Shown piece after piece: positions 5,621 through 35,357 of a stretch of DNA of 41,439 bases (the first letter of the stretch is position 1; every line of letters starts with the position of its first letter). Location: positions 1 through 41,439 of the forward strand of contig JAAENK010000062.1 in assembly GCA_024224415.1 (NCBI GenBank), given 5' to 3'. Source of the stretch: Gammaproteobacteria bacterium. GTDB lineage: Bacteria; Pseudomonadota; Gammaproteobacteria; GCA-001735895. A model generated the notes under the pieces. The model was not told the origin of the DNA and made no database searches. It was given only the letters and a program-made list of their open reading frames with translations. Position numbers and translations under genes: made by a program.

Positions 5621-7186
5621 GTGCCTTATTTACATCCCGGAGTTTATGTAGAAGAAACCCCACGCGGCTCAAAGCCGATAGAAGGTGTGGGGACATCGAC
5701 CGCGGCATTTATTGGATATGCTTACAAAGGTTCGATAGGTGAACCGAAGCTGATCTCTAAATGGGGCGATTACAATACTGAATTTGGTGGCGTGCAAAAC
5801 ATGGGGAATAATACTCAGGGTGATTCCATGGGATTATCGGTTTCTGCATTTTTCCTGAATGGCGGTGGTAAGGCTTATATTGTTCGCATCACCGAAGACT
5901 GGATGGAAGAAGATCCGACCATTACCCACGCTGAGAAGGCGCTGGCCTATGTTGATAACCCAATCGATCCGGCAAATAAGGCGTTGAAATTCAGCGCTGT
6001 AAACGAAGGAGCATGGGCGAATGGCATTGTCGTCAAACTGTCGGTAAGTACGCTCGCTATTAGTTTGTACGATGTCGAAGTAGGTCGGAACGACGATAGA
6101 GATGAGTTTTATGCAATAGAAAGCTTCGCCAGCGTTAGCCTGAATGATACCGATCCGAAGTATATCGAGAGTGTCATCAATGGCCTCTCCAGTCTGGTCA
6201 CGGTCGAACTGGTAGACGGTATTTCATCCACGGAGGTCATCCCCGATAGCGATATCCTACTGGAAATGCTCGACGGCGGTGCCGATGGTGGAGAACCGGG
6301 TACCGAAGACTACAACAAGATATTCACGCAATTTATCAAGATTCGCGATATTAATACCATTTGTTTACCTGGCCAGCATTGGTCAACCGACAATTCGGGG
6401 AATCCAGTCATCCAGAATGCGATAACACATGCGGAAAAGATGAAGAGTTGCATGGTTATAGTCGATCCACCTCCCGGCCACGAACTGGACTCGGAGAAAA
6501 AGGTGGTTGACATGGAACTACCGAGCCAGCCTTATTGTGCGCTGTATTATCCATGGGTGCAGACCACCAACCAGTTCTACCACGCCGAATATTATCCGGG
6601 GTTGCCGAAAAATGTACTGGTGCCGCCAAGTGGTTATGCCGCGGGCATGTGGGCCAAGATTGACGGCAGGCGAGGGGTCTGGAAAGCACCCGCAGGCACG
6701 GCAACAGGTTTACTGGGCATTTCTGAACTGGAATATGTCGTCGAGAACGATGAACAGGGTTCGCTCAACCCGTTGGGAATCAATTGTTTTAGAAGTATGC
6801 CAGGCGCTGGCAAGGTTATTTGGGGGGCGCGCACGCGGGCCACCAGGACTGATCCCGAGTGGCGTTATATACCAGTACGCAGAACCGCGATCATGATCGA
6901 ACAAAGTATTTACATCGGCACACAGTGGGCAGTGTTCGAACCCAACGATCATCGCCTGTGGTCTGCGCTTCGAGCCACTATCGGTAACTTTATGAATGAC
7001 CTGTTCCGTGGTGGGGCATTCCAGGGGCGAAAAGCATCGGATGCCTTTTTCGTGCGCTGTGGGCTGGGTGACACCATGACGCAGAGTGAAATCGACGCTG
7101 GTCAGGTTGTTGTGATTGTTGGCTTCGCGCCACTCAAACCCGCCGAATTCGTCATCATCAACATTCGGCAGAAAGTAAACCAGTAA
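5621..7186 (+). CDS. Contractile tail sheath family protein (orphan)
   Basis: 521 aa, GTG start with AGAGGA upstream; N-term PYLHPGVYVEETPRGSKPIEGVGTSTAAFIGYAYKG; C-term ...VRCGLGDTMTQSEIDAGQVVVIVGFAPLKPAEFVIINIRQK. Confidence 0.88.
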   Translation: MPYLHPGVYVEETPRGSKPIEGVGTSTAAFIGYAYKGSIGEPKLISKWGDYNTEFGGVQNMGNNTQGDSMGLSVSAFFLNGGGKAYIVRITEDWMEEDPTITHAEKALAYVDNPIDPANKALKFSAVNEGAWANGIVVKLSVSTLAISLYDVEVGRNDDRDEFYAIESFASVSLNDTDPKYIESVINGLSSLVTVELVDGISSTEVIPDSDILLEMLDGGADGGEPGTEDYNKIFTQFIKIRDINTICLPGQHWSTDNSGNPVIQNAITHAEKMKSCMVIVDPPPGHELDSEKKVVDMELPSQPYCALYYPWVQTTNQFYHAEYYPGLPKNVLVPPSGYAAGMWAKIDGRRGVWKAPAGTATGLLGISELEYVVENDEQGSLNPLGINCFRSMPGAGKVIWGARTRATRTDPEWRYIPVRRTAIMIEQSIYIGTQWAVFEPNDHRLWSALRATIGNFMNDLFRGGAFQGRKASDAFFVRCGLGDTMTQSEIDAGQVVVIVGFAPLKPAEFVIINIRQKVNQ

Positions 7187-8274: not shown

Positions 8275-9801
8275 ATGAACTTTTTTTCTTATCTGACCTC
8301 CGACGATATTCAATACGTGCACGAGGCTTCGCTGGAAATTCTCGAAGAAGTCGGCCTGTTGGTGCGTAACGAAAAAGCCAGAAAGCGATTCGCCGAACAT
8401 GGTGCGATTGTCGATCACGCAACCGAGGTGGTGCGCATACCGCTTGCTGTGGTCGAAAAGTATCGTGCGCTGATACCGCCGACGTTTACTTTAAGAGGCC
8501 GTGACCCAGCCTACGATGTCACCTTCCCGCGCAAGCTACCGGTAATCGCAACGGCAAGCTCTGCGCCTGATATAGTCGATCCGGTGACTGGTGTGACGCG
8601 CAGGTCAAGGTCCGATGACATCGCTCGTATCGCCCATCTGGTTAATGAGCTACAGGGTTTCGACCTGTTTTCTATCTCGACGCTGGCCGATGATGCCCCC
8701 ATTGATCAATTCAGTCTTACACGTTTCTACGCGGCGTTGAAGAATTGCCTCAAACCTTGCCGTACCTCGGTTTACAATATTCAGGAGGCCGAGCAGGTCA
8801 TCCAACTCGGTGAACTCATCGCTGGCTCAAAACAGGCATACTGGGAGCGGCCATTTATCAATTTCGGATATTGCTCCATCGTCTCCCCTTTGACCATGGA
8901 TTTCGACAGTACCGATACCATGATGTACTTTGCCGAACAGGGTATTACCGCATACGGTACTATCGCGCCGATGGGTGGGTTAAGTACGCCGCTGACTCTG
9001 TCCGGCATGCTGGTCACCATGAACGCCGAATGGCTAGCTACCGCAACACTGGTGCAAATGTCCCGTGCGGGGACGGCCCAGATGTATAACTTTCTGCCGG
9101 TGTTCGCCGACATGCGCGATGGCGCATATGCGCCGGGGGCGATTGAAATCGGCATGATGAATTCGGCGGTTTGCCAGATGGCGCGATTCTATAATGTACC
9201 CGGTGGCGGCTATCTCGGTCTGACTAACTCCAAGCTTGCCGATGCGCAGGCTGGTTTTGAAAAAGGCATGTCGCCGTTGATGGGTGCGCTGTCCGGGGTT
9301 GATTTTATTGCCATGGGAGGCTTGCAGGATGCTTTAATGTCTTTCGATTTTGGCCAGGCCGTTATCGACAATGAAATTGCACTGATGATTAAACATGTGC
9401 GCGAAGGCTTTGGATTTAATCGGGAATCAGTATCGTTACAGGAGATTAAGGACACCGGTCCGGCAGGTATGTTTGCGGCCAATCCAACGACGCTGGAACG
9501 CATGCATACTGCAACCTTTATGCCCGAACTGGCCGACAGGAAGTTGCGCGAACAGTGGGAACTTGAGGGTAGTTCGAGTATTCATCAACGTGCTTTGAAT
9601 AAAGCATGTTCGATACTGTCATCGCCAAATGCCGCCGCGCTGGATGCCGCTACCGATGCCCGCATTCGCAGTGCATTTGACGGTCTGGTGACGGGCGATT
9701 CTACACTGCCAGAAGGTTGGCAACCATCGAAAGTGGGTGGACAGGCACCAGTGCGACAGCGTCGCCCGAGCCGTCGTCGGCAAAAACAAAACGCGGGTTA
9801 A
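8275..9801 (+). CDS. MttB/COG5598-family methyltransferase, non-pyrrolysine type
   Basis: 508 aa; SKLADAQAGFEKGMSPLMGALSGVDFIAMGGLQDALMSFDFGQAVIDNEI and NIQEAEQVIQLGELIAG are MttB-superfamily features; no in-frame TAG interrupts the ORF. Confidence 0.87.
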   Translation: MNFFSYLTSDDIQYVHEASLEILEEVGLLVRNEKARKRFAEHGAIVDHATEVVRIPLAVVEKYRALIPPTFTLRGRDPAYDVTFPRKLPVIATASSAPDIVDPVTGVTRRSRSDDIARIAHLVNELQGFDLFSISTLADDAPIDQFSLTRFYAALKNCLKPCRTSVYNIQEAEQVIQLGELIAGSKQAYWERPFINFGYCSIVSPLTMDFDSTDTMMYFAEQGITAYGTIAPMGGLSTPLTLSGMLVTMNAEWLATATLVQMSRAGTAQMYNFLPVFADMRDGAYAPGAIEIGMMNSAVCQMARFYNVPGGGYLGLTNSKLADAQAGFEKGMSPLMGALSGVDFIAMGGLQDALMSFDFGQAVIDNEIALMIKHVREGFGFNRESVSLQEIKDTGPAGMFAANPTTLERMHTATFMPELADRKLREQWELEGSSSIHQRALNKACSILSSPNAAALDAATDARIRSAFDGLVTGDSTLPEGWQPSKVGGQAPVRQRRPSRRRQKQNAG

Positions 9802-9807
9802 ATATTT

Positions 9808-12237
9808 ATGACTGCATCAATTCCAGCCAGCACTCGCATCGTGGTGATTGGTGGTGGCGTGATTGGAACCAGCATTGCTTATCATCTGGCTCGCGCGGGT
9901 GCGAAAGATGTGTTGTTGCTGGAGAAATCCAAACTCACCGAGGGTGCAACCTGGCATGCGGCCGGGCTGGTCGGCCAGTTTCGCTCGCAACAAAATCTCA
10001 TGAGCCTGATGAACGACAGCGTAAAGCTATTCGACCGACTAGGGCAGGAAACCGGGCAGGATCTTGGCTGGCGCAAATTTGGCAGTATCAGGCTGGCGCA
10101 AACCGAGAATCGTTGGAAAGAGTTGCTCAAATCGTATTCCGCGGCGCAAGCGGTTGGTTTCGAGATGAATCTATTAACGCCGAGTGAAGCCGGTGAGCTA
10201 TACCCGCTGATTGAAACAGCCGACCTGGTCGGAGCGGCGTTTATTCCGGCCGATGGCTATATCGATCCTAACAGCCTTACGCAGGCTTACGCTAAAGGTA
10301 TCCGCGCCAATGGTGGTCGAATTGTCGAAGGCGTGATGGTCACGGATATGGTACATGACAAAAATCGAATTACTCAGGTAGTGACCGATCAAGGCTCGAT
10401 AGCAGTCGAAACCGTGGTGAATGCAGCAGGTCTGTGGGCCAGACAGCTCGGCTGGATGGCTGGTGTCGAAATCCCTGCCGCGGTGGTTGAGCACCAATAT
10501 CTGGTAACAGAGAAATCCGACCTGATCCCCGATGGCCTACCCGCGCTACGCGACCCGGATGGTGGTTTCTATGCCAAACCAGAACCCGGTGCGCTAGCTA
10601 TCGGTGGCTGGGAGCGACAAACAAATAAAGTCAACCCTCGGGAAGGATTCCCCTGGCAAAATGAGCGATTTCTGTTTGACGGGAATATGGATCGCCTGGC
10701 GGAATTCTTCGAACCGGCAATGCAACGTATCCCTGCGCTTGGCGAACTGGGTATGCGTAGCATTGTAAATGGCCCTATACCGATTTCACCAGATGGCGAG
10801 CCGATCATGGGGCCGGTGCCGGGGCTGGACAATTTTTTCAGCGCCTGCGCATTTACTTCGGGCATTGCTGCATCGGGAGGTGCGGGTAAGGCGATGGCTA
10901 ACTGGATTCTCGAAGGTGATCCCGGGCTTGATTTGTGGCCATTTGATATTCGTCGTTTTGGGCCACTACACGCCGGGCAGAAATTTCTGCACGATCGAGC
11001 AGTTGAAAGCTATAGCAAATACTACGCGATTCACTGGCCCGGCGAGGAACTCGAAGCGGCGCGAGGCGTTCGACGCAGTCCGTTGTATCAAACCTTGAGA
11101 GATCAAGGCGCGGTATTCGGTTCAAAATTTGGTTGGGAACGAGCCAACTGGTTTGCGCACAATAGTATAGCTCAACAGGATGTACATGGCTTTGACCGTC
11201 CGCAGCAGGATATCACCGTTGGATGCGAGCATCGCGCCGCGCGTGATGGCGTCGTGCTTGTTGATATGTCATCCTTCACCAAATTCGAAATCAGTGGCGT
11301 CGATGCCTGTCGGTTCCTGCAATACCTGGCGGTAGCCAATGTTGACAAACAACCGGGTGGTGCAAGCTATACGCAATTGTGTAATCAACGCGGTGGCATT
11401 GAAGCCGACGTGACTATTATCAGGCGTTCAGAAGATTGCTTCTGGTTGATTACCGGATCTGGCTTCGGCGTTCGTGACCGGCACTGGATTGAAAGAAATC
11501 TGAAAGGCTATGGCTCAGCCACAGTTGAAATACGCGATATCACATCAACCTATGGCGTGATTAACCTGGCAGGACCTTTGGCTCGTAAGGTATTACAAAA
11601 GGTTTGCGATGATGATGTCAGCCACGAGGCTTTTCCTTTTATGGCTGCAAAGGATATCCGAATTGGCTACGCACCAGCGCTGGCCTACCGTGTAAGTTAC
11701 ATTGGTGAGCTGGGATGGGAGCTTTATATCCCCTCCGAGTATCTGCAATACGCGTATGAAACCCTGCAACAGGCTGGTGAGGAATTTGATATCACCAATA
11801 TGGGTTATCGCGCCATCGATAGCCTGAGACTGGAAAAGCGTTACCTTGCCTGGGGTGTCGATATAACACCCGATTACAATCCCTTCGAGGCAGGGTTACA
11901 GTTTTCAATTGACTGGAATAAGGGGGATTTCGTCGGCGCCGAAGCACTGGAAAAAATTAAGCAACAGGGTGTGTCGCAGAAACTGGCCTGTCTTGCGCTA
12001 AATAAGCCACTACCGGTGTTCGGCGGGGAGGCAGTCTTTCTGGGCGACAAAGTGGTTGCGCAAACCACCAGTGGTAATTTCGGTTACATGGTTGGCAAGA
12101 GTCTGGTGCTTTGTTATCTGCCGGTGGATATACTTGATGAAAACAAATTTATGGTGCAGTCGTTTGATGAGAAAAGTAGTGCTTCGCTGGTTAAAGGTGC
12201 GGCATATGATCCGGAGCGGAAGAAAATGCTTTGTTGA
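9808..12237 (+). CDS. FAD-dependent oxidoreductase with C-terminal GcvT/aminomethyltransferase domain (dimethylglycine/sarcosine dehydrogenase-like)
   Basis: IVVIGGGVIGTSIAYHLARAGAKDVLLLEKSKLTEGATWHAAGLVGQF (FAD motif, WHAAG), then GcvT-like ISGVDACRFLQYLAVANVD...SYIGELGWELYIPSEY...YRAIDSLRLEKRYLAWGVDITPDYNPFEAGL. Confidence 0.9.
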   Translation: MTASIPASTRIVVIGGGVIGTSIAYHLARAGAKDVLLLEKSKLTEGATWHAAGLVGQFRSQQNLMSLMNDSVKLFDRLGQETGQDLGWRKFGSIRLAQTENRWKELLKSYSAAQAVGFEMNLLTPSEAGELYPLIETADLVGAAFIPADGYIDPNSLTQAYAKGIRANGGRIVEGVMVTDMVHDKNRITQVVTDQGSIAVETVVNAAGLWARQLGWMAGVEIPAAVVEHQYLVTEKSDLIPDGLPALRDPDGGFYAKPEPGALAIGGWERQTNKVNPREGFPWQNERFLFDGNMDRLAEFFEPAMQRIPALGELGMRSIVNGPIPISPDGEPIMGPVPGLDNFFSACAFTSGIAASGGAGKAMANWILEGDPGLDLWPFDIRRFGPLHAGQKFLHDRAVESYSKYYAIHWPGEELEAARGVRRSPLYQTLRDQGAVFGSKFGWERANWFAHNSIAQQDVHGFDRPQQDITVGCEHRAARDGVVLVDMSSFTKFEISGVDACRFLQYLAVANVDKQPGGASYTQLCNQRGGIEADVTIIRRSEDCFWLITGSGFGVRDRHWIERNLKGYGSATVEIRDITSTYGVINLAGPLARKVLQKVCDDDVSHEAFPFMAAKDIRIGYAPALAYRVSYIGELGWELYIPSEYLQYAYETLQQAGEEFDITNMGYRAIDSLRLEKRYLAWGVDITPDYNPFEAGLQFSIDWNKGDFVGAEALEKIKQQGVSQKLACLALNKPLPVFGGEAVFLGDKVVAQTTSGNFGYMVGKSLVLCYLPVDILDENKFMVQSFDEKSSASLVKGAAYDPERKKMLC

Positions 12238-12252
12238 AATGGAATTGTTTTA

Positions 12253-13221
12253 TTATTTTGTATTCTGAGAAAACTTTGCCTTGAATGCTCCGGGTGTCAG
12301 TTTAATAAATTTTTTAAACTTATTTCTAAATGCGCCGACGTCCTGGTATCCGACTTTGAGTGATATCATCTCGAATGAAAGCCTTGATGTCTCGATCAAC
12401 TCACAGGCATTTTGAATCCGTATGCGTTGGATATATTCGGTGGGTTTATAACCAGTTGCACTGAAGAAGCGCCTTAAAAAGGTTCGTTCTTCTAACAGGC
12501 AGTGTTGTGATAGCTGATTGATAGTGAGGAGTTCACCGTAGTTTTTCTGAATATAATGCTGTGCTTTCACAATGGCCTTATCGGCGTGATCCTGGCGGGG
12601 TGAAAACACCTGGTAGTAAGCTTGCTCGCGCGTTCCAGTATCGACGACTAATTGCTTTCCCAGTTCACGCATCACATAACCATGGAGAAACTGCTTAACA
12701 AGTTCCAGACCCAGGTCTACCCAGGACATCAGGCCACCAGCGGTAATGATATCTCCATCATTGATTAGGATTTTATCGACATCTAAATTGACCTCTGGAT
12801 ATTTGTCAGAAAAAAGCCCAGCCAGGTTCCAGTGTGTCGTCGCACGACGTTGCTTAATAATCCCGGTAGCCGCGAGAAGGAAAGCCCCCGCACAAATAGA
12901 ACATATCAGCGTACCTTCCGCATGACGTTCGATTATCCAGTGCTTAAGCGACTCGCTGGGGTTTAGGCAAAAGCTGTTTTCCATCGCGGGTGGGATAATA
13001 ATAATCTGGAGAGATGGTTCTGCTTTTTTATTTGATTTTTCTAAATTGATTGCTTCATAAAATTCACTAACCTCGTATTGCTCTACGACAAATTGTTTTT
13101 TCACTCTGCGTTTTTCACAAATAACATTTGCCAGCTCAAATAACTCTCTTAAGCCAATCACCGCCGATTGCATAGCTCCAGGATAATTTATTATTGCTGT
13201 ATTAATTGTCAAAATGGCCAT
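12253..13221 (-). CDS. GlxA-family AraC transcriptional regulator (DJ-1/GATase-like domain plus HTH_18)
   Basis: ICSICAGAFLLAATGIIKQRRATTHWN nucleophile-elbow-like segment and C-term AraC HTH LLEERTFLRRFFSATGYKPTEYIQRIRIQNACELIETSRLSFEMISLKVGYQDVGAFRNKFKKF. Confidence 0.88.
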   Translation of the reverse strand: MAILTINTAIINYPGAMQSAVIGLRELFELANVICEKRRVKKQFVVEQYEVSEFYEAINLEKSNKKAEPSLQIIIIPPAMENSFCLNPSESLKHWIIERHAEGTLICSICAGAFLLAATGIIKQRRATTHWNLAGLFSDKYPEVNLDVDKILINDGDIITAGGLMSWVDLGLELVKQFLHGYVMRELGKQLVVDTGTREQAYYQVFSPRQDHADKAIVKAQHYIQKNYGELLTINQLSQHCLLEERTFLRRFFSATGYKPTEYIQRIRIQNACELIETSRLSFEMISLKVGYQDVGAFRNKFKKFIKLTPGAFKAKFSQNTK

Positions 13222-18942: not shown

Positions 18943-21408
18943 CTAACGCAAGTTTTTGATTGCCAATATAGCTTGATTCCGTAGAGTTTTGAGCAGGCTA
19001 AGTTGGGAATCGCTTACTGAAATGGAACTACTCTGTGCATTATCAATATAAATCAATGCAATTGGCGAATGCTTGATGCTGACGGGAAAGATGGTAAAAC
19101 TTTTAGCGCCGATATCCCGATGATACCATTCTGGAATTCGTTTTCTTATATTTTCTTCCTTGGTGTCTTCGATACGAATATCCTGATTATTTTTAAATGC
19201 GATATGGAAGACATCGGCCTGATAGGCTAGTGGGATGACAAATTTATCGATTATCTGTTCAACGTTTTCCCCATATCCGAACCGGGCATCAATCGATTTG
19301 CCTGATTTGTTTTTCAGGCATAACACTACGCGTGATCCGGATAAAGCGCGATAAATAATTTCCAGAATCATTTGAAAAATCTGGTTAATGGTGTATTCAC
19401 CTGTGAGGGTATTGGTAATATCCTGGATACCATTAGTCAGTGCTTTATCGGCGGACTGATTGAAGGCTTCGATATCTTCCTCCAGTATTCTTACACTCCC
19501 CGTAGTTTCGAGTTCTGAATGTGGTGAATGATCGGTATCCTCAATGTTTGATGAATTGTCCTGGTTCGATGAGAGCTTGAGATAAAATGGGTTATCTTTC
19601 AAATTAAACTGGATAAGGCGAGCAAACTCTACGAGTTCCTTCTGGCAATTACCGATTATTGCACTGACCTTCTCGCTGTCGATTTTCAGGCTTCTGGCAT
19701 AGTTTGAGGTTAAACTTTTCAGTGCGGCAGTCTGCTGTTTAGCAGGTAGTTTGAGTACAGTGCCGAGTGAATTACTAAACTGAGATATGACCTGCAGGCT
19801 TGCTGCGGTTGAGTTATTTTTTCCAAGGATCGAGATGTCCAGTGGTTGCATACTGTCGATAATCTGTTCTGGGAAGCCCCATTCGCGAGCAACTGACATG
19901 CCTAGCTGATGATAACTTGTGCCCAATACCCTGACGGCTGCATTGGCTTCACTAATCTCCTCCTGTGCTGTGAGCTTTTCGATAGCCTGGGCTTCTTCGT
20001 GAAGATAAAAACGCACCAGTCGTTTTCCCAGTTGCTGTAGCAATGCGCACAGAAAGGCTTCTTCGTGGTTAGTCAGGTCCAATGAACTCGACAACTCGTT
20101 CGCAACCAGTGCACTAAACAGTGACTCAACGGCGTCTTCCTTTAGTTGGCTTGATTGCAATTTATTTTGCATATGTTCAAACAGCATCAAGGCTGCTGCG
20201 ATGCTCCGCACCGGATTAATGCCAAGCATCACGACTGCACGTGATATTGTATTAATCTTACTACCGCCACGATTATAATGGGCTGAGTTGACCAGCCGTA
20301 GCACTTTGTTAGTCAACGAATAGTCCTTAAGAATGGCATTGGAAACACTGGCCAGGCTTTCGGTATCGCTGGATGTGGCTTTGTTGAGTATGCTGATGGT
20401 TTGTGAAAAAACTGGAAAGTCACTTTTGTGCCGCATGCGGCGCAATAGAAAGGCGACTGTGGCGTCATGGTTCTCGCCGTTAGAGGCCTGATCGCTAACA
20501 GAGAGATAATCGTTGAATGCCTGCAACATCACCCCTGCATCGGCAAAACGTTGTTGCGGATCCTTGACCAATGTTTTCAATATCAAATCATCGAGTCCCT
20601 CATCAACGGCCTTGTTGACGCTGGACGGTGCTTCGAATTTTTCGTTGCTAATACGATTCAGGATTTGATAAATATCGTCACCGTCGGCCGCCGGTTTACC
20701 GGTTAACATCTCATAAAAAACCAGGCCGATTGAAAATACATCTGATACGATCTGGTGTCGGCGCGTCTCGATATACTCGGGCGCCATGTAAAGCGGAGTA
20801 CCCGATAATCCACTGTCTTCAATTTGCGCCGCCTCGGCAAAATGTGCGAGACCAAAGTCTGCTACCTTGGCATGTCCCTCGGCGTTAATTAAAATATTGG
20901 CCGGTTTAATATCGCCATGCGCAATTTTCTGGGCATGTGCGGCAGCAACGCCTGCGAGAATATCGCGCATAATACGCAGGGCTTCGTCTATTTTCAGGCC
21001 GCTGCGAATTTTTTGCCTGAGTGATGAACCCTTAATATATTCGAGCACCAGGTAAGGTCGATAGTCCGAGATACCGACGTCGTAAACCGTAACAATATTG
21101 GCATGTTGCAAGCGGCTCACCATGCGTGCTTCCGAGAGCAATTGCTCCATGGTTTCCTGGTGCTGCAATTCACTATTCAAATGCACCGCCTTGATCGCAA
21201 CTTGCCGATGCAAATCGGGATCCCGAGCCAGGTAAACTATACCCTGCTTACCATGCCCGAGTTCTTTCTCGATAATAAAACGGTCAATAATTTGTGGCGC
21301 AAGGGTTTGTAACACGAATAGCGTCCTGATTGGTTTGTTATCAGAAGTATAGTTGGGGATTGCTGGCCTGCCGCTGAATTCAACGGATTGAGTATTCCAT
21401 TGAAACAA
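18943..21408 (-). CDS. Serine/threonine protein kinase with HDOD and C-terminal GAF-like region
   Basis: Kinase: VAIKAVHL, HGDIKPANILI, VADFGLAH, GTPLYMAPEY; HDOD: FPVFSQTISILNKAT...LTNKVLRLVNSAHYN...ISRAVVMLGINPVRSIAAALMLFEH; GAF-like end ALSGSRVVLCLKNKSGKS...ALIYIDNAQ. Confidence 0.88.
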   Translation of the reverse strand: MFQWNTQSVEFSGRPAIPNYTSDNKPIRTLFVLQTLAPQIIDRFIIEKELGHGKQGIVYLARDPDLHRQVAIKAVHLNSELQHQETMEQLLSEARMVSRLQHANIVTVYDVGISDYRPYLVLEYIKGSSLRQKIRSGLKIDEALRIMRDILAGVAAAHAQKIAHGDIKPANILINAEGHAKVADFGLAHFAEAAQIEDSGLSGTPLYMAPEYIETRRHQIVSDVFSIGLVFYEMLTGKPAADGDDIYQILNRISNEKFEAPSSVNKAVDEGLDDLILKTLVKDPQQRFADAGVMLQAFNDYLSVSDQASNGENHDATVAFLLRRMRHKSDFPVFSQTISILNKATSSDTESLASVSNAILKDYSLTNKVLRLVNSAHYNRGGSKINTISRAVVMLGINPVRSIAAALMLFEHMQNKLQSSQLKEDAVESLFSALVANELSSSLDLTNHEEAFLCALLQQLGKRLVRFYLHEEAQAIEKLTAQEEISEANAAVRVLGTSYHQLGMSVAREWGFPEQIIDSMQPLDISILGKNNSTAASLQVISQFSNSLGTVLKLPAKQQTAALKSLTSNYARSLKIDSEKVSAIIGNCQKELVEFARLIQFNLKDNPFYLKLSSNQDNSSNIEDTDHSPHSELETTGSVRILEEDIEAFNQSADKALTNGIQDITNTLTGEYTINQIFQMILEIIYRALSGSRVVLCLKNKSGKSIDARFGYGENVEQIIDKFVIPLAYQADVFHIAFKNNQDIRIEDTKEENIRKRIPEWYHRDIGAKSFTIFPVSIKHSPIALIYIDNAQSSSISVSDSQLSLLKTLRNQAILAIKNLR

Positions 21409-25049: not shown

Positions 25050-26084
25050 ATGGATATAGCTCAATTGTTAGCTTTTGGTGTTAAACAGGGGGCATCTGAT
25101 TTGCACCTCTCTGCCGGGTTGCCGCCAATGATCAGAGTAGACGGTGATATCCGCCGCATCAATGTGCCCGAGATGGATCATAAGCAGGTCCACGACATGA
25201 TTTATGACATCATGAGCGATAAACAACGTAAGGATTACGAAGAATTCCTGGAAACCGACTTTTCTTTCGAGATACCGGGCCTCGCTCGTTTCCGTGTTAA
25301 TGCCTTTAATCATAACCGTGGTGCCGGTGGTGTATTCCGGACTATCCCATCCAAAATCCTTAGTCTGGAAGATTTGAATGCGCCAAAAATATTCCAGGAG
25401 ATATCTGAATATCCACGTGGCATCGTACTGGTGACCGGACCAACAGGTTCGGGTAAGTCGACCACATTGGCCGGCATGGTCGATTATAAAAATGATTCTG
25501 AATATGGCCATATATTAACCGTCGAAGACCCTATCGAGTTTGTGCACGAGAGCAAGAAATGCCTTGTTAACCAGCGCGAAGTACACCGCGATACTCTCGG
25601 TTTCAACGAAGCGTTGCGCTCTGCCTTACGTGAAGACCCGGATACTATTCTAGTGGGCGAGATGCGTGACCTGGAAACCATTCGTCTAGCGCTGTCGGCG
25701 GCGGAAACTGGCCACCTGGTATTGGGTACCCTGCATACCAGTTCCGCTGCAAAAACCATTGACCGAATCGTTGACGTCTTCCCCGCGGCGGAAAAAGCCA
25801 TGGTGCGTTCGATGTTGTCCGAATCGTTAAAAGCGGTCATCTCGCAAACGCTGTTGAAAAAAATCGGCGGTGGTCGTGTCGCCGCGCACGAAATCATGAT
25901 TGGAACACCTGCGATACGAAATCTGATTCGTGAAGATAAGATAGCGCAAATGTATTCGGCTATCCAGACCGGGCAAAATGTTGGTATGCAAACCCTCGAT
26001 CAGAATTTAAAAGGCTTGCTGGCGCAGGGTGTTGTATCGAAAGATGAAGCGCAGAAGAAAGCCGCGCATCCAGATCAGTTATAG
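25050..26084 (+). CDS. pilT: Type IV pilus retraction ATPase PilT
   Basis: MDIAQLLAFGVKQGASDLHLSAGLPPMIRVDG; Walker A GPTGSGKS; GTPAIRNLIRE (AIRNLIRE motif). Confidence 0.96.
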   Translation: MDIAQLLAFGVKQGASDLHLSAGLPPMIRVDGDIRRINVPEMDHKQVHDMIYDIMSDKQRKDYEEFLETDFSFEIPGLARFRVNAFNHNRGAGGVFRTIPSKILSLEDLNAPKIFQEISEYPRGIVLVTGPTGSGKSTTLAGMVDYKNDSEYGHILTVEDPIEFVHESKKCLVNQREVHRDTLGFNEALRSALREDPDTILVGEMRDLETIRLALSAAETGHLVLGTLHTSSAAKTIDRIVDVFPAAEKAMVRSMLSESLKAVISQTLLKKIGGGRVAAHEIMIGTPAIRNLIREDKIAQMYSAIQTGQNVGMQTLDQNLKGLLAQGVVSKDEAQKKAAHPDQL

Positions 26085-26103
26085 ATTAAAACGGGAGTAA
26101 AGA

Positions 26104-27273
26104 ATGGATCGCAATAAGGCGATAAGTTTTATGCACGACCTGCTACGTATGATGGTGAGCAAGGATGGGTCGGATTTGTTTATCACATCAGGCTCACCAC
26201 CAGCGATGAAAGTCGATGGTAAGGTGACTACCGTATCGAAGCAGAATTTGTCACCGAATCATACTCAGATGCTGGCGCGTTCGATTATGAATGACAAGCA
26301 GGTTTCCGAGTTTGAAGAAAAACAGGAGTGTAATTTTTCTATCGCTTTGCCGGGTGTCGCTCGATTTCGTGTTAATGCTTTCATTCAGCGTGGTAGCAGT
26401 GGTCTGGTTTTGCGTATCATTAATTCCGAAATACCGAGTTTTGAGGAATTAAACCTGCCGCCGATTTTGCAGGATATTTCGATGACCAAGCGCGGGCTGG
26501 TTATTTTTGTCGGCGGTACCGGTTCGGGTAAATCGACTTCGTTGGCGTCGATGGTGGACTATCGCAACAAGCAAAGCTATGGCCACATTATTACCATTGA
26601 AGATCCAGTCGAATTTGTCCACGAACACCAGAATTGCCTGGTTACCCAGCGTGAGGTAGGGGTCGATACCGAATCCTATGAAATTGCTCTGAAAAATACC
26701 TTACGGCAGGCGCCGGATGTAATACTGATCGGTGAGATCCGCGATCGCGAAACTATGGAACACGCCATTGCGTTTGCAGAAACCGGCCACCTGTGTCTGT
26801 CTACCCTGCATGCCAATAGCACTAACCAGGCGCTGGACCGGATTATTAACTTTTTCCCGGACGAGCGTCGCTCGCAACTGCTAATGGATTTGTCTTTAAA
26901 CCTGAAAGGTTTGATTTCACAACGGTTGATTCCGAATATTGACGGCGCGGGTCGAATCCCGGCGATTGAAGTCATGCTCAATACGCCATTAATGGCCGAT
27001 TTGATTTTCAAAGGCGAAGTGCATGAAATGAAGTCTTTAATTGCCAAGTCGAACGAGGCGGGTATGCAGACCTTTGATCAGGCCTTATTTGCCCTGTTCG
27101 AAGCACGCAAGATTACTTTCGAGGACGCCTTGCGTAATGCTGATTCGGTAAATGATATTCGTTTACGCATCAAACTGGAGAGCGATACCGCTCGCAAAAC
27201 GGGACTGGTTGAAGACCATCGTGAATTCGAGCTGGAAGAATCCGATGACGAAAGTCCAGGTGGGTTGATTTGA
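26104..27273 (+). CDS. pilU: Type IV pilus retraction ATPase PilU
   Basis: DLLRMMVSKDGSDLFITSGSPPAMKVDGKV; GGTGSGKSTSLASMVDYRN; LRQAPDVILIGEIRDRETMEHAIAFAETGHLCLSTLHANS. Confidence 0.92.
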   Translation: MDRNKAISFMHDLLRMMVSKDGSDLFITSGSPPAMKVDGKVTTVSKQNLSPNHTQMLARSIMNDKQVSEFEEKQECNFSIALPGVARFRVNAFIQRGSSGLVLRIINSEIPSFEELNLPPILQDISMTKRGLVIFVGGTGSGKSTSLASMVDYRNKQSYGHIITIEDPVEFVHEHQNCLVTQREVGVDTESYEIALKNTLRQAPDVILIGEIRDRETMEHAIAFAETGHLCLSTLHANSTNQALDRIINFFPDERRSQLLMDLSLNLKGLISQRLIPNIDGAGRIPAIEVMLNTPLMADLIFKGEVHEMKSLIAKSNEAGMQTFDQALFALFEARKITFEDALRNADSVNDIRLRIKLESDTARKTGLVEDHREFELEESDDESPGGLI

Positions 27274-27274
27274 T

Positions 27275-28447
27275 ATGAGTCGCGAACCGACAACAAAACT
27301 GCTAGAACCCTATTTAAAAATCATTGTGGAAAAACAGGGCTCCGACCTGTATTTCATCTCGGGCGCGCCGCCGAATATGAAAGTGCAGGGCAAAACAACC
27401 GCCATCGCCAAGAATGCCTTCCAGATTGGCCAGGTCGAGAAACTTGCTTTCAGCCTCTTAAATGATGAGCAGGAGCGCGATTTTCAAATTAATCGCGAAC
27501 TCAATCTCGGTTTCACATTGCCTGATGTTGGACGATTTCGCGTTAATATATTTATCCAACGCTCAGAGGTGTCGATGGTAATTCGATACATTAAATGGGA
27601 AATCCCGAGCATTGATGAACTGGGTTTGCCACAGGTTCTGAAGCAAATAGTTATGAGTAATAACGGTCTGGTGCTGGTGGTGGGATCAACCGGCTCGGGT
27701 AAGTCGACTTCGCTGGCATCGATGATCGATCACCGCAATAAAAGCGAAGGTGGTCATATACTCACTATTGAAGATCCCATCGAATTTGTGTTTAGGCATA
27801 ACAAATCGATCATTTCACAACGTGAAGTAGGTATCGATACCCTGAGTTATCAAAATGCGCTGCGCGAGGCACTACGCGAAGCCCCTGAGGTGATTATGAT
27901 CGGCGAGGCGCGCGATGCCGAAACTATGAAAGCCGCGATCAATTTTGCCGATACTGGCCATTTATGTCTGACTACCTTGCATGCTGTTAACTCTAATCAG
28001 GCAATGGACCGGATTATGAATATGTTCCCGACGGAAATGCGCAAACAGTTATTGATGGATTTGTCGCTCAACCTGAAGGCGGTTATTTCGCAACGGCTGG
28101 TGCCTGGCATGCACGGCAAGCTTGCCTGTGCTGTCGAGGTGATGGTGAGTACGCCTTATATTTCAGAGCTAATGCGCGACGGCAATTTCAACGAAATTAA
28201 GGAGATCATGGAAAAGGGTGATACCACCGGTATGCAAACTTTCGATCAGTCGCTCTATAACCTCTATAAATCTGATGTTATTACCATTAAGAGCGCGCTC
28301 GCATATGCGGATTCGAGTACCAACCTGGAATGGAAGATCAACTTTGGTGGTGATCAGGAAAAACCAAAATCAGACAGTGATACACGGCATAACCTGAACC
28401 AGATGGGTGGGCTTGAGGATCTGACTTTGCCCTCCGAAGAAATTTAA
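27275..28447 (+). CDS. Additional PilU-like type IV pilus ATPase
   Basis: IIVEKQGSDLYFISGAPPNMKVQGKT; GSTGSGKSTSLASMIDHRN; LREAPEVIMIGEARDAETMKAAINFADTGHLCLTTLHAVN; starts 1 nt after the pilU stop. Confidence 0.9.
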   Translation: MSREPTTKLLEPYLKIIVEKQGSDLYFISGAPPNMKVQGKTTAIAKNAFQIGQVEKLAFSLLNDEQERDFQINRELNLGFTLPDVGRFRVNIFIQRSEVSMVIRYIKWEIPSIDELGLPQVLKQIVMSNNGLVLVVGSTGSGKSTSLASMIDHRNKSEGGHILTIEDPIEFVFRHNKSIISQREVGIDTLSYQNALREALREAPEVIMIGEARDAETMKAAINFADTGHLCLTTLHAVNSNQAMDRIMNMFPTEMRKQLLMDLSLNLKAVISQRLVPGMHGKLACAVEVMVSTPYISELMRDGNFNEIKEIMEKGDTTGMQTFDQSLYNLYKSDVITIKSALAYADSSTNLEWKINFGGDQEKPKSDSDTRHNLNQMGGLEDLTLPSEEI

Positions 28448-31414: not shown

Positions 31415-31447
31415 ATGTTATAAAGTTGTGAACATTTTGTGATCGTG
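31415..31447 (+). promoter_or_regulatory. Three tandem 11-nt repeats upstream of the Met-rich gene (putative response-regulator site)
   Basis: ATGTTATAAAG / TTGTGAACATT / TTGTGATCGTG, contiguous 11-mers sharing xTGTKA; end 17 nt before TTTAAT at 31465-31470; in register with the msrAB upstream array. Confidence 0.6.
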
Positions 31448-31478
31448 GAGTGATTCACCACGGGTTTAATAGCGTTTC

Positions 31479-31500
31479 CAGTTTGGTCAGTGGCCAACTG
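31479..31500 (+). promoter_or_regulatory. Predicted 5'-leader stem-loop of the Met-rich transcript
   Basis: CAGTTTGGTC-AGT-GGCCAACTG pairs as 9 bp with a single-T bulge and one G-U pair, just downstream of the predicted transcription start. Confidence 0.45.
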
Positions 31501-31532
31501 GATGCTTCAATTAAACTAAACACAGGTACCCA

Positions 31533-31784
31533 ATGATGAAAACCAGCAAACTTATTAGCTTTGCCTTGATGGCATTATTAACACTTGGCGCAGGTGCAAC
31601 TATGGCGGCGCCCGACGAATCTGAAGAAATGCAGAAAATGGATGAAATGAACAAGGAAAGTATGGAGAACACGGACTGCATGAAAACCAAAGAGATGGAC
31701 AAGATGGATGGTGAGATGAAAGGAGAAACGATGGACAACATGGATGGCATGCAAGAAGACTGTATGCAAAAAATGGATGGTTAG
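31533..31784 (+). CDS. Small exported Met-rich acidic peptide (MrpX-like or metal-binding candidate)
   Basis: Signal peptide MMKTSKLISFALMALLTLGAGATMA, then a 58-aa predicted mature region with 13 Met and 2 Cys: APDESEEMQKMDEMNKESMENTDCMKTKEMDKMDGEMKGETMDNMDGMQEDCMQKMDG. Confidence 0.8.
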   Translation: MMKTSKLISFALMALLTLGAGATMAAPDESEEMQKMDEMNKESMENTDCMKTKEMDKMDGEMKGETMDNMDGMQEDCMQKMDG

Positions 31785-31906
31785 ATGGAGAAAAATATAT
31801 AAAGAAAACGTAGATTGATAGTTGATATGGCGCTATTTTGTGCTGCAGATTGCCCTCTGAGCGGTTACGCTTGGAGGGTTACCCGTTTAGAGTTACTAGT
31901 TTTTGT

Positions 31907-32611
31907 GTGAATCGTAAAATACTTATCATCGAAGACGACCCGGATATCGCGCAATTAATCACTATGCACGTGATGGAGGCGGGGTATGAGGCGTTGCACG
32001 TCAATAGTGGTGAACAAAGCCTCGAGGAATTCGAAAAATCGCTCCCTGATTTACTGGTGCTGGACCTTATGCTGCCGGGTATTGACGGTTTGGAGGTGTG
32101 CAAGCGTGTTCGTAAAAAGAATGAGCATATTCCGATATTGATGCTAACTGCAAAATCAACCGAACTGGACCGCGTTCTGGGTCTGGAACTGGGTGCAGAT
32201 GACTACCTGACCAAACCGTTTAGCGTAGTTGAGCTGGTGGCGCGCATCAAGGCGCTTTTGCGACGGGTTGATGCATTGGGCGTATTACCTGCATCGGAAC
32301 AATCGCCGACAGTCTTGAAATTCCACAATCTTACGATTGATACCGGGCGGCATAAAGTAGAGACGACTGAAGGCGTTATTGAATTGACCGCACGCGAGTT
32401 TGATTTACTATTGTATCTCGCTTCTTCCCCCGGGCATGTGTTCAGTCGTGCGCAGCTGCTGGATGCAGTATGGGGTTATAATCACGACGGTTATGAGCAT
32501 ACGGTTAATACGCATATAAACCGCCTGCGCATTAAAATTGAAGTGGATCCTGCCAAACCGGAATACGTGCAAACTGTTTGGGGTGTAGGGTATAAATTCG
32601 GTGACTCGTGA
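31907..32611 (+). CDS. OmpR/PhoB-family response regulator
   Basis: From GTG at 31907: VNRKILIIEDDPDIAQLITMHVMEAGY...LLVLDLMLPGIDGLEV...YLTKPF, C-term winged helix DAVWGYNHDGYEHTVNTHINRLRIKIE...VWGVGYKF; the listed 31838 start adds non-homologous N-terminus. Confidence 0.93.
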   Translation: MNRKILIIEDDPDIAQLITMHVMEAGYEALHVNSGEQSLEEFEKSLPDLLVLDLMLPGIDGLEVCKRVRKKNEHIPILMLTAKSTELDRVLGLELGADDYLTKPFSVVELVARIKALLRRVDALGVLPASEQSPTVLKFHNLTIDTGRHKVETTEGVIELTAREFDLLLYLASSPGHVFSRAQLLDAVWGYNHDGYEHTVNTHINRLRIKIEVDPAKPEYVQTVWGVGYKFGDS

Positions 32612-34071
32612 ACGGATTTAAGTCTCTTTATACGCGACTGGCCTTTGGCCTGATCCTTTTGCTGTTTGTTATTGGTGTTTTATATACCGCTCTAAATACC
32701 ATTGCGACACAGAGATTTGTCGCGCAGCTTAACCAGGATTTACACCGGACACTGGCACAGAATCTGGTAGCGGATAAAAACCTGGTCGCGCAGGGCAAAA
32801 TCGATGAAGCCGCACTTAAGAAAACCTTTCAGCAATACATGGTGGTGAATCCAAGTATTGAAATATACCTGCTTGATCTTGAGGGTAAATTGCTTTCGTA
32901 CTCAGCTGATCCTGATGTGGTGATGCGTAGCCGTGTTAGCCTTGAGCCAATCAAGGCCTTTTTAAGCGGAGTAGAGAAATATCCCCTGGGTGATGATCCA
33001 CGTAGCCATGATAAACAAAAATCGTTTTCAGTAACCGAAGTACCCTCGGGCTCTGCACCGGAAGGTTATTTGTACGTAGTGTTACGTGGCGAACAGTACG
33101 ACGCACTGGAATCAATGGCGTTTCAGGGTTTCTGGGCGCTTGCCGGCTTGTGGTCAATGGCACTCAGCCTGTGCGTTGGCTTACTCGCTGGCCTGGCAAT
33201 ATTCTACTGGCTGACAAAGCGGCTGCGGCGGGTATCACGCCGTATTGAAGTTTTCAGTGAGAGTGATTTCAAATCGTGGTCGGCCTCAGAAATTTCCGAC
33301 AGTAGCGAGGATGAGATTGCTCAGATAGAACAGATCTTTGAGCAGATGGCAGCTCGAATTCAAAGCCAGCTTGCGGCCCTGATAGATAAGGATAAGCAGC
33401 GACGCCAACTGGTAGCGCAGGTGTCACACGATTTGCGTACCCCGCTGGCCTCCATGTTGGGCTATATCGAGTCACTAAAAATAAAGCGCAATAAACTCTC
33501 AGCGAAAGAACAGGAAAAGTTTCTTGAAGTTGCGTATCGGCAGGGAAGACGCCTCGGTCACATGGTTGACAGTTTATTTGAACTCTCCAGTCTTGAGGCC
33601 AAAGAGATCAAACCGCAACTCGAACCCTTTGTGCCGCTGGAACTGTTGTTCGATATTCGCCAGAAATATGCTATTCGCCTCCGCGAGGCGGGTTTGTCAC
33701 TTGAGATCGAGTTTGATCAGCAGGGTGCATTTGCAATGGGTGATGTGTCGCTGTTTGAGCGCGTGCTGGATAACCTCATCGAAAACGCAATGGTTCACGC
33801 CGCAACCTCAAGTCAGATTATGTTGCGTATTGAGAGTAGTGCAGAGAGTATCGGTGTTTCGGTAAGTAACCAGGGTGAACTTATAAATGAAAAAGAGCTA
33901 AGTTCTTTGTTTGATCCTTTCTATCGGGCTGATTCGCAATCGGTTGACAGGCGCCACGCTGGACTTGGCCTGGCAATATCCAGGCAAATTATGGAAAGCC
34001 TGGAGGGCTCGATTCTAGCCAGCAACACGGTCGACGGAGTGATCTTTACGGTCTATTTGCCTATAGCCTGA
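32608..34071 (+). CDS. Sensor histidine kinase, membrane-bound with periplasmic sensor domain
   Basis: TM1 LAFGLILLLFVIGVLYTAL, periplasmic domain, TM2 LWSMALSLCVGLLAGLAIFYWL; QVSHDLRTPLASMLGYIE H-box; VLDNLIENAMVHA N-box; RRHAGLGLAISRQIM G-box; overlaps RR by 4 nt. Confidence 0.94.
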   Translation: MNGFKSLYTRLAFGLILLLFVIGVLYTALNTIATQRFVAQLNQDLHRTLAQNLVADKNLVAQGKIDEAALKKTFQQYMVVNPSIEIYLLDLEGKLLSYSADPDVVMRSRVSLEPIKAFLSGVEKYPLGDDPRSHDKQKSFSVTEVPSGSAPEGYLYVVLRGEQYDALESMAFQGFWALAGLWSMALSLCVGLLAGLAIFYWLTKRLRRVSRRIEVFSESDFKSWSASEISDSSEDEIAQIEQIFEQMAARIQSQLAALIDKDKQRRQLVAQVSHDLRTPLASMLGYIESLKIKRNKLSAKEQEKFLEVAYRQGRRLGHMVDSLFELSSLEAKEIKPQLEPFVPLELLFDIRQKYAIRLREAGLSLEIEFDQQGAFAMGDVSLFERVLDNLIENAMVHAATSSQIMLRIESSAESIGVSVSNQGELINEKELSSLFDPFYRADSQSVDRRHAGLGLAISRQIMESLEGSILASNTVDGVIFTVYLPIA

Positions 34072-34115
34072 GTCCAGCAATACTTGTCACCGCAAAAGCA
34101 GAGAGCGTGGGGGAA

Positions 34116-34159
34116 TTGTTATAGATTTGTTAAGACTTCGTGAAAGTTCTGTCATGTGC
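34116..34159 (+). promoter_or_regulatory. Tandem 11-nt repeats upstream of msrAB (putative response-regulator site)
   Basis: TTGTTATAGAT / TTGTTAAGACT / TCGTGAAAGTT / CTGTCATGTGC; third repeat ends at 34148, 17 nt before TATTAT at 34166-34171. Confidence 0.6.
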
Positions 34160-34199
34160 CCAGTTTATTATTACTTACTCACTATGATGGGAACTTGAT

Positions 34200-35357
34200 A
34201 TGAACAGGAAAACACGAAATACCATTAGCTTTATTAGCGTAATGTTGGTCGCGGGATTGGCATTTATGCGGCTCAATGCCGAGCAAGTGCCGACAATGGA
34301 AGCAATGCAGGATGATAAGGGCCTGGCAGTTGCCACCTTTGCCGGTGGCTGCTTCTGGTGTATCGAATCCGGATTTGAGAAACTGCCAGGTGTTGATGAT
34401 GCGGTCTCAGGTTACACCGCCGGAGAGCTTGAGAATCCTACGTATAAGCAGGTTTCGCGTGGAGGGACGGGCCACACCGAAGCCGTGCAGGTGCATTATG
34501 ACCCGACTGTTATTAGCTATAATGATTTACTGGAAGGGTTTTGGCGCCAGTTCGATCCGACAGATGGCGAAGGCTCATTCGTCGACCGCGGGAGCCAGTA
34601 TCGACCAGGAGTTTATTACAATAATATAGCTGAGAAAAAAGCGGTGGAAGCATCCATCGCCAAATACGAGGCGTCGGGCCAATACGACAAATCCTTTGCG
34701 GTAGAAGTTGCGCCACTGGATGTATTTTATCCGGCTGAAGATTATCATCAGGATTATCATGTAAAAAACCCTATACGTTATAAATATTATCGCTTTGGAT
34801 CGGGGCGTGATCAGTATCTTGAGAAATTCTGGGGAGATGATTTACATTATATGGTTAAAGGCCCGATGAAAGGCGGTGTGGATACTACGAAGAAGATGAA
34901 CGATGATGCAGGCAAGTTATATATTAAACCGAGTGATGAGGTGCTGCGTGTGCAGTTGACAGATTTGCAGTACAAAGTAACCCAAAAAGATGGCACTGAG
35001 CAGCCATTTGCCAACGAATACCACGACAACAAGAAGGCAGGGATCTATGTTGATATTGTTTCCGGTGAACCCTTGTTTTCCTCTCTTGATAAGTTTGATT
35101 CGGGTACTGGATGGCCGAGTTTTAGCCAACCAATCGATGCTCGACATATTGTCACCAAAACAGATTACAAACTATTGTTACCGCGCACTGAAGTTCGTAG
35201 CGCCGGTGCAAATTCACATCTTGGGCACGTGTTCAAGGATGGGCCCGAGCCAACCGGGCTGCGCTATTGCCTGAATTCAGCATCCCTGCGATTTGTTGCC
35301 AAATATGACCTGGTTACTCAGGGTTATGAGCAGTATGAAGCATTGTTCGCACGGTAA
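34200..35357 (+). CDS. msrAB: Exported/membrane-anchored MsrA-MsrB fusion methionine sulfoxide reductase
   Basis: N-term hydrophobic leader [20 protein letters not shown]; Msr[35 protein letters not shown]; Msr[50 protein letters not shown]. Confidence 0.94.

Follow-up and report, generated by a model that had tools for sequence, protein, structure and literature searches.

Gene content of the locus

We analysed a stretch of 41,439 nucleotides from a Gammaproteobacteria bacterium (GCA_024224415.1, contig JAAENK010000062.1, positions 1 to 41,439; hereafter the window), in which four genes on the + strand encode, in this order, an 83-amino-acid (aa) exported peptide rich in methionine (Met), an OmpR-type response regulator (RR), a sensor histidine kinase (HK), and an exported fusion of the methionine sulfoxide reductases (Msr) MsrA and MsrB. 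A first-pass annotation had described these genes as adjoining, with 13 Met in about 58 mature residues of the exported peptide, an OmpR-type regulator, a kinase with a periplasmic domain, and an exported MsrA-MsrB fusion. Each part of this description is borne out by the residue count and by the domains listed below, with the two Msr domains lying behind an N-terminal signal or anchor segment. The start given there, 31415, falls at the first of two predicted regulator boxes, which is part of the same unit. RR and HK together form a two-component system (TCS) resembling OrhKR of uropathogenic Escherichia coli (UPEC).

31417..31453, + strand: predicted regulator box 1, GTTA-N7-GTGA-N7-GTGA-N7-GTGA, top matrix match in the window, with the peptide start 80 bp downstream
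31533..31784, + strand: exported Met-rich peptide (MrpX-like), 83 aa, recognised from its sequence and from positional counterparts before the RR in loci L121, L124, L125, and L131
31907..32611, + strand: OmpR-family response regulator (OrhR-like), with Response_reg and Trans_reg_C domains
32608..34071, + strand: sensor histidine kinase (OrhK-like) with a PDC/PAS-like periplasmic domain and HAMP, HisKA, and HATPase_c domains
34118..34154, + strand: predicted regulator box 2, GTTA-N7-GTTA-N7-GTGA-N7-GTCA, second matrix match, with the msrAB start 46 bp downstream
34200..35357, + strand: exported MsrA-MsrB fusion (peptide-methionine sulfoxide reductase), with PMSR and SelR domains and TIGR00401 and TIGR00357 above cut-off

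The RR probably starts at GTG 31907, the listed open reading frame (ORF) from TTG 31838 being an over-extension, and the HK start overlaps the RR stop codon. Both the sequence and a rule-based scan place a signal peptide ahead of Met-rich, charged Lys/Asp/Glu-rich repeats in the exported peptide, of which the predicted mature part (APDESEEM...; 58 aa) contains 13 Met, 2 Cys, and no His. A match of this peptide to HvfA, a ribosomally synthesised and post-translationally modified peptide metallophore (E 0.0095), was rejected as chance, scoring 16.5 bits where the cut-off is 95. Judged from its sequence, MsrAB carries both Msr domains (PMSR 1.6e-57, SelR 6.8e-46), the catalytic Cys motifs GGCFWC and RYCLNS, and a hydrophobic N terminus that is predicted to direct export. 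The same genome (G000) has a second MsrA on contig C115 (16019-16480).

Predicted regulator boxes, neighbourhoods, and sensor

Upstream regions across the loci that we compared share a four-fold tandem repeat with 11-bp spacing, GTGA-N7-GTGA-N7-GTGA-N7-GTGA. A matrix trained on 38 loci outside the window (matrix A) scores 31.7 bits at 31417-31453 in the peptide promoter and 31.0 bits at 34118-34154 in the msrAB promoter; any further independent site in the window reaches at most 6.4 bits, and 20 random sequences reach at most 11.4. Matrix B, trained only on 20 loci that have Spondin_N genes and lack Msr genes, recovers both window sites (31.5 bits for the peptide, 28.7 bits for msrAB) and also locates the peptide and DUF1223-msrAB promoters of L118-L121, L124, L125, and L131. 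Over 1.03 Mb of background loci, matrix matches exceed 18 bits solely at the msrAB promoters of two relatives, L003 (32.4) and L005 (30.7); in L195 and L201, the box also precedes msrAB genes that are unlinked. The arrangement of two boxes, one for the peptide and one for msrAB, recurs in L121, and a pattern fitted post hoc to the two window boxes finds only those 2 sites in the 3.07-Mb assembly when up to one mismatch is allowed. Promoters of the UPEC-type plasmid and Burkholderia loci receive low matrix scores. We infer that the peptide and msrAB promoters share a predicted box through which one regulator may act on both.

Of the 369 Gammaproteobacteria genomes sampled, 64 have an orthologue of the kinase, and neighbourhoods of ~12 kb were examined around 60 kinase matches and 7 more from one family, giving 67 loci besides the window. 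In 14 of the 67, the TCS has Msr genes no more than a few kb away: exported MsrAB, MsrA, MsrB with a twin-arginine-like start or, once, an MsrPQ pair (L160). The kinase is present in 16 of the 20 genomes that have exported MsrAB, compared with 64/369 overall (Fisher p 3e-10; 12 families, relatedness uncorrected), and MsrAB orthologues in relatives are 82-61% identical. MsrAB matches also occur on Vibrio plasmids, with no linked TCS on the one annotated stretch; the other stretch is without annotation.

A Met-rich exported ORF stands immediately before the RR in four further gammaproteobacterial loci, L121, L124, L125, and L131 (the last being the same locus as L011, from isolate B4_G11). These peptides are unrelated in sequence and have in common a Met/Lys/Asp/Glu-rich composition and their position. 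A fixed rule that calls ORFs with a signal peptide and a Met-rich hydrophilic tail returned none in the 1.03 Mb of background, whereas the TCS loci (0.84 Mb) yielded seven. Five of these immediately precede the RR; of the others, one resembles an EF-hand protein and one looks spurious. L125 has a second Met-rich exported ORF of 193 aa with GPGMM repeats, ~3.1-3.7 kb upstream of the kinase. A search of genomes for a Met-rich ORF with RR/HK and MsrAB had been proposed in the first-pass annotation, and the association is indeed conserved, in the four peptide loci and the 14 Msr-linked ones. Three genomes of one sister genus (G365, G267, and G151; L118, L119, and L120) place an exported MsrAB beside the homologous TCS with a long Met-rich repeat, MxKDMMEKSSMEKMPMKK, fused to its N terminus. 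There, the fused msrAB follows a gene for a DUF1223 protein that has a CSSC motif, and a CcdA-like gene lies on the opposite side of the TCS. The window's own genome has a DUF1223 gene on contig C327 (5354-5950; L207), before which a strong regulator box was not found.

The window RR is 50% identical to OrhR (strain UTI89), 55% to a B. multivorans RR, and 38% to HprR and CusR. In an RR tree, OrhR falls inside a 69-row clade with the window RR, separated from HprR and CusR with 100/100 support in a rough bootstrap that had not stabilised. A profile built from 53 sensors of the window family matches OrhK at 1.6e-46, and membership in two other systems was rejected: HprSR (sensor E 0.13, RR identity 38%) and CusSR or another heavy-metal TCS (sensor E 0.43, RR score 179.5 against the TIGR01387 cut-off of 279.2). 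The fold model of the sensor domain is PDC/PAS-like (predicted local distance difference test score, pLDDT, 80) with weak matches to PDC domains, and the sensor profile found no significant match among solved structures. Met78 of the HK (about 32839-32841) is invariant in 53 of 53 orthologue sensor domains and is present in OrhK too. Because periplasmic methionines of HprS are reported to sense hypochlorous acid (HOCl) (El Hajj et al. 2022, as cited by PMC10151825), Met78 is a plausible candidate for a periplasmic oxidant sensor.

Interpretation of the gene set

The locus is probably an OrhKR-type regulon for methionine oxidation in the envelope, in which a thiol-dependent MsrAB replaces MsrPQ. 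We favour this reading because the sensor matches OrhK and because, in published work, an operon that includes MsrPQ-like genes and one for a Met-rich peptide is a direct target of activation by OrhKR during peroxide stress (PMC8550376). In the proposed mechanism, the kinase would sense a periplasmic oxidant, possibly through the conserved Met in its PDC-like domain, and the phosphorylated RR would bind the tandem GTGA boxes and activate msrAB as one transcription unit and its own operon, in which the Met-rich peptide comes first, as another. The peptide would act as a sacrificial methionine sink for HOCl, peroxide, or like oxidants, and the exported MsrAB would reduce both sulfoxide epimers, on the peptide and on other envelope proteins, with thiol electrons from what may be a thioredoxin-like chain. 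A scavenger and a recycler under their own TCS had been suggested in the first-pass annotation, and the neighbourhoods, the fusions, the shared box, the co-occurrence of kinase and MsrAB, and the homology to OrhKR argue by inference for that suggestion. More tentatively, and with the odds in our view somewhat against it, the Met-rich segment and MsrAB (separate here, fused in the sister genus) could form a catalytic oxidant-destroying cycle, in which the methionine array consumes oxidant, MsrAB re-reduces the array with thiol electrons, and the oxidation of a single invariant Met switches the TCS sensor itself.

Several observations weigh against an OrhKR-type methionine-oxidation regulon. The closest relatives with MsrAB, L004-L006, have no linked TCS or peptide, and L004 and L006 are without a strong box. 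About 27 of the 68 TCS orthologue loci (L122-L172 and others) have Spondin_N (PF06468) proteins instead of Msr genes, which makes the regulon of this TCS broader than methionine repair. These exported Spondin_N proteins adjoin the OrhKR-like TCS, are often paired, have the same GTGA box, and are never accompanied by Msr genes within the stretches fetched; the proposed model leaves their loci unexplained. In UPEC, the phenotype is carried by the Msr genes, and the available part of the report ascribes none to the peptide gene c3568 (PMC8550376). A homologue of the window peptide was not detected in 41 genomes of its order, where the search returned only the peptide itself, as expected because the sequence is of low complexity; position and composition were therefore used instead. 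The window peptide also has no match at E<=1 to the penta_MxKDx family TIGR02953, for which several of its counterparts score 26-32 bits and UPEC-type peptides 35-39 bits, all under the cut-off of 41 bits.

An alternative that we consider unlikely is a general envelope-stress or protein-repair regulon, in which msrAB would repair many envelope proteins and the peptide would be chaperone-like, a signal, or an oxidant reporter for the kinase rather than a bulk scavenger. Such a regulon would fit the TCS orthologues, which often accompany Spondin_N or thiol-redox genes without a Met-rich peptide, and the majority of Msr-linked loci, which also lack one. However, a peptide of the same composition but unrelated sequence recurs at this position, and one genus has it fused to MsrAB, a pattern that best fits a substrate or sink.

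Somewhat less likely again is the handling of metals, which the first-pass annotation had offered for copper or silver. The peptide would then be a Cu/Ag sponge with MxxM motifs, the TCS would sense metal, and MsrAB would maintain the methionines in the reduced state, the part that MsrPQ plays for E. coli CusF. Met-rich motifs of known proteins bind Cu(I), E. coli msrPQ is induced by CusSR (PMC9302797), the sensor fold is weakly like many PDC domains, silver-bound CusS among them, and the second exported protein of L125 is rich in GPGMM. In contrast, the sensor profile matches CusS only at E 0.43, the RR reaches 179.5 where the heavy-metal RR cut-off is 279.2, and the window peptide has no His. 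By eye, without a systematic scan, no Cu/Ag efflux gene was recognised beside the TCS in the listed loci. We find no support for the copper or silver alternative. That an ordinary TCS, an unrelated low-complexity ORF, and msrAB are neighbours by chance is very improbable: the nearest MsrAB relatives do lack a linked TCS and peptide, but the out-of-sample box test and the recurring peptide already contradict the idea, and the co-occurrence of kinase and MsrAB and the fusions also speak against it.

Under the OrhKR-type reading, the predicted DNA box could be used to find further targets, the natural fusion of bait and enzyme offers a test of the sacrificial-methionine idea within one polypeptide, and Met78 is singled out as a candidate residue for sensing oxidants in the periplasm.

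Elsewhere in the window, a lone ORF resembling a contractile-tail sheath protein (5621-7186, +) lies outside any obvious phage cluster, and three PilT-like ATPase ORFs follow one another at 25050-28447 (+). By eye, 18943-21408 (-) encodes an apparent Ser/Thr kinase fusion with HDOD-like and GAF-like parts, and 8275-13221 holds an MttB-like methyltransferase and a dimethylglycine/sarcosine dehydrogenase-like pair adjoining a GlxA/AraC-like regulator, a gene content that suggests use of methylated amines or betaine.

Comparison with known systems

The first-pass annotation had drawn parallels to MrpX with YedY1 and to HprSR. Both likenesses hold, but neither is the closest system. MrpX-YedY1 of Azospira (as cited by PMC8550376 and PMC8315932) and BcrXQP of Brucella likewise combine a Met-rich periplasmic peptide with a methionine sulfoxide reductase, and differ from the window in having MsrPQ-type enzymes under extracytoplasmic function (ECF) sigma/anti-sigma control in place of MsrAB under a TCS. 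BcrXQP is induced by HOCl (PMC8315932). HprSR-MsrPQ of E. coli K-12 places envelope methionine sulfoxide repair under a TCS, as here, but its sensor does not match (E 0.13), HprR is only 38% identical, the reductase is MsrPQ rather than MsrAB, and the fetched K-12 locus lacks a Met-rich peptide. The Burkholderia locus msrB-dipZ-msrA with a divergent TCS (L211; B. multivorans) belongs to the same TCS clade and adjoins exported Msr of the thiol type; there, however, MsrA and MsrB are separate and accompanied by DipZ, and the annotated genes include no Met-rich peptide.

The closest system is OrhKR-C3566-C3568 of UPEC, which already joins a local TCS, a Met-rich peptide, and Msr. Kinase homologues on plasmids pointed to an E. 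coli/Klebsiella locus that encodes a Met-rich peptide and an MsrPQ-like pair, and to a chromosomal copy in UTI89, where the kinase has His278 and the regulator Asp55, as reported for OrhK and OrhR. Across an E. coli collection, an OrhKR-type kinase occurs in 348/5426 genomes (most copies chromosomal, at ~73% identity) and on plasmids of 69 genomes at 99% or more identity. Both systems have a homologous kinase with the same sensor domain, a homologous regulator (50%), a neighbouring exported Met-rich peptide with two Cys, and Msr genes adjoining the TCS. In UPEC, the c3566 promoter is a direct binding target of OrhR, and both tert-butyl hydroperoxide and host-derived H2O2 elicit a response of the OrhKR-controlled Msr operon (PMC8550376); the control by the RR that is direct there is predicted here from the boxes. 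The systems differ in several respects. The UPEC reductase is MsrPQ-like (molybdopterin/cytochrome b), whereas the window has MsrAB, and a scan of the orthologue loci for MsrP/Q gave no match at the window locus and one at L160. The peptide gene ends the msr operon in UPEC and heads the RR-HK operon here, the proposed OrhR site is TCACA-N15-TGTGA rather than tandem GTGA boxes, and the co-transcription with a toxin operon seen in UPEC has no counterpart here, where that operon is absent.

The first-pass annotation had also spoken of a different architecture. The pairing of MsrAB with a local TCS stands, but given the OrhKR precedent it is a reductase swap on a known theme and not a new kind of architecture. 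We found no description of OrhKR with MsrAB, or of a Met-rich repeat fused to MsrAB, in the searchable literature, from which subscription journals are largely missing. Because the OrhKR, window, and Burkholderia homologues carry different reductases, one type of TCS is combined with interchangeable Msr enzymes. The isolated reports of MrpX, BcrXQP, OrhKR, and exported MsrAB may thus be joined into one widespread family of regulons.

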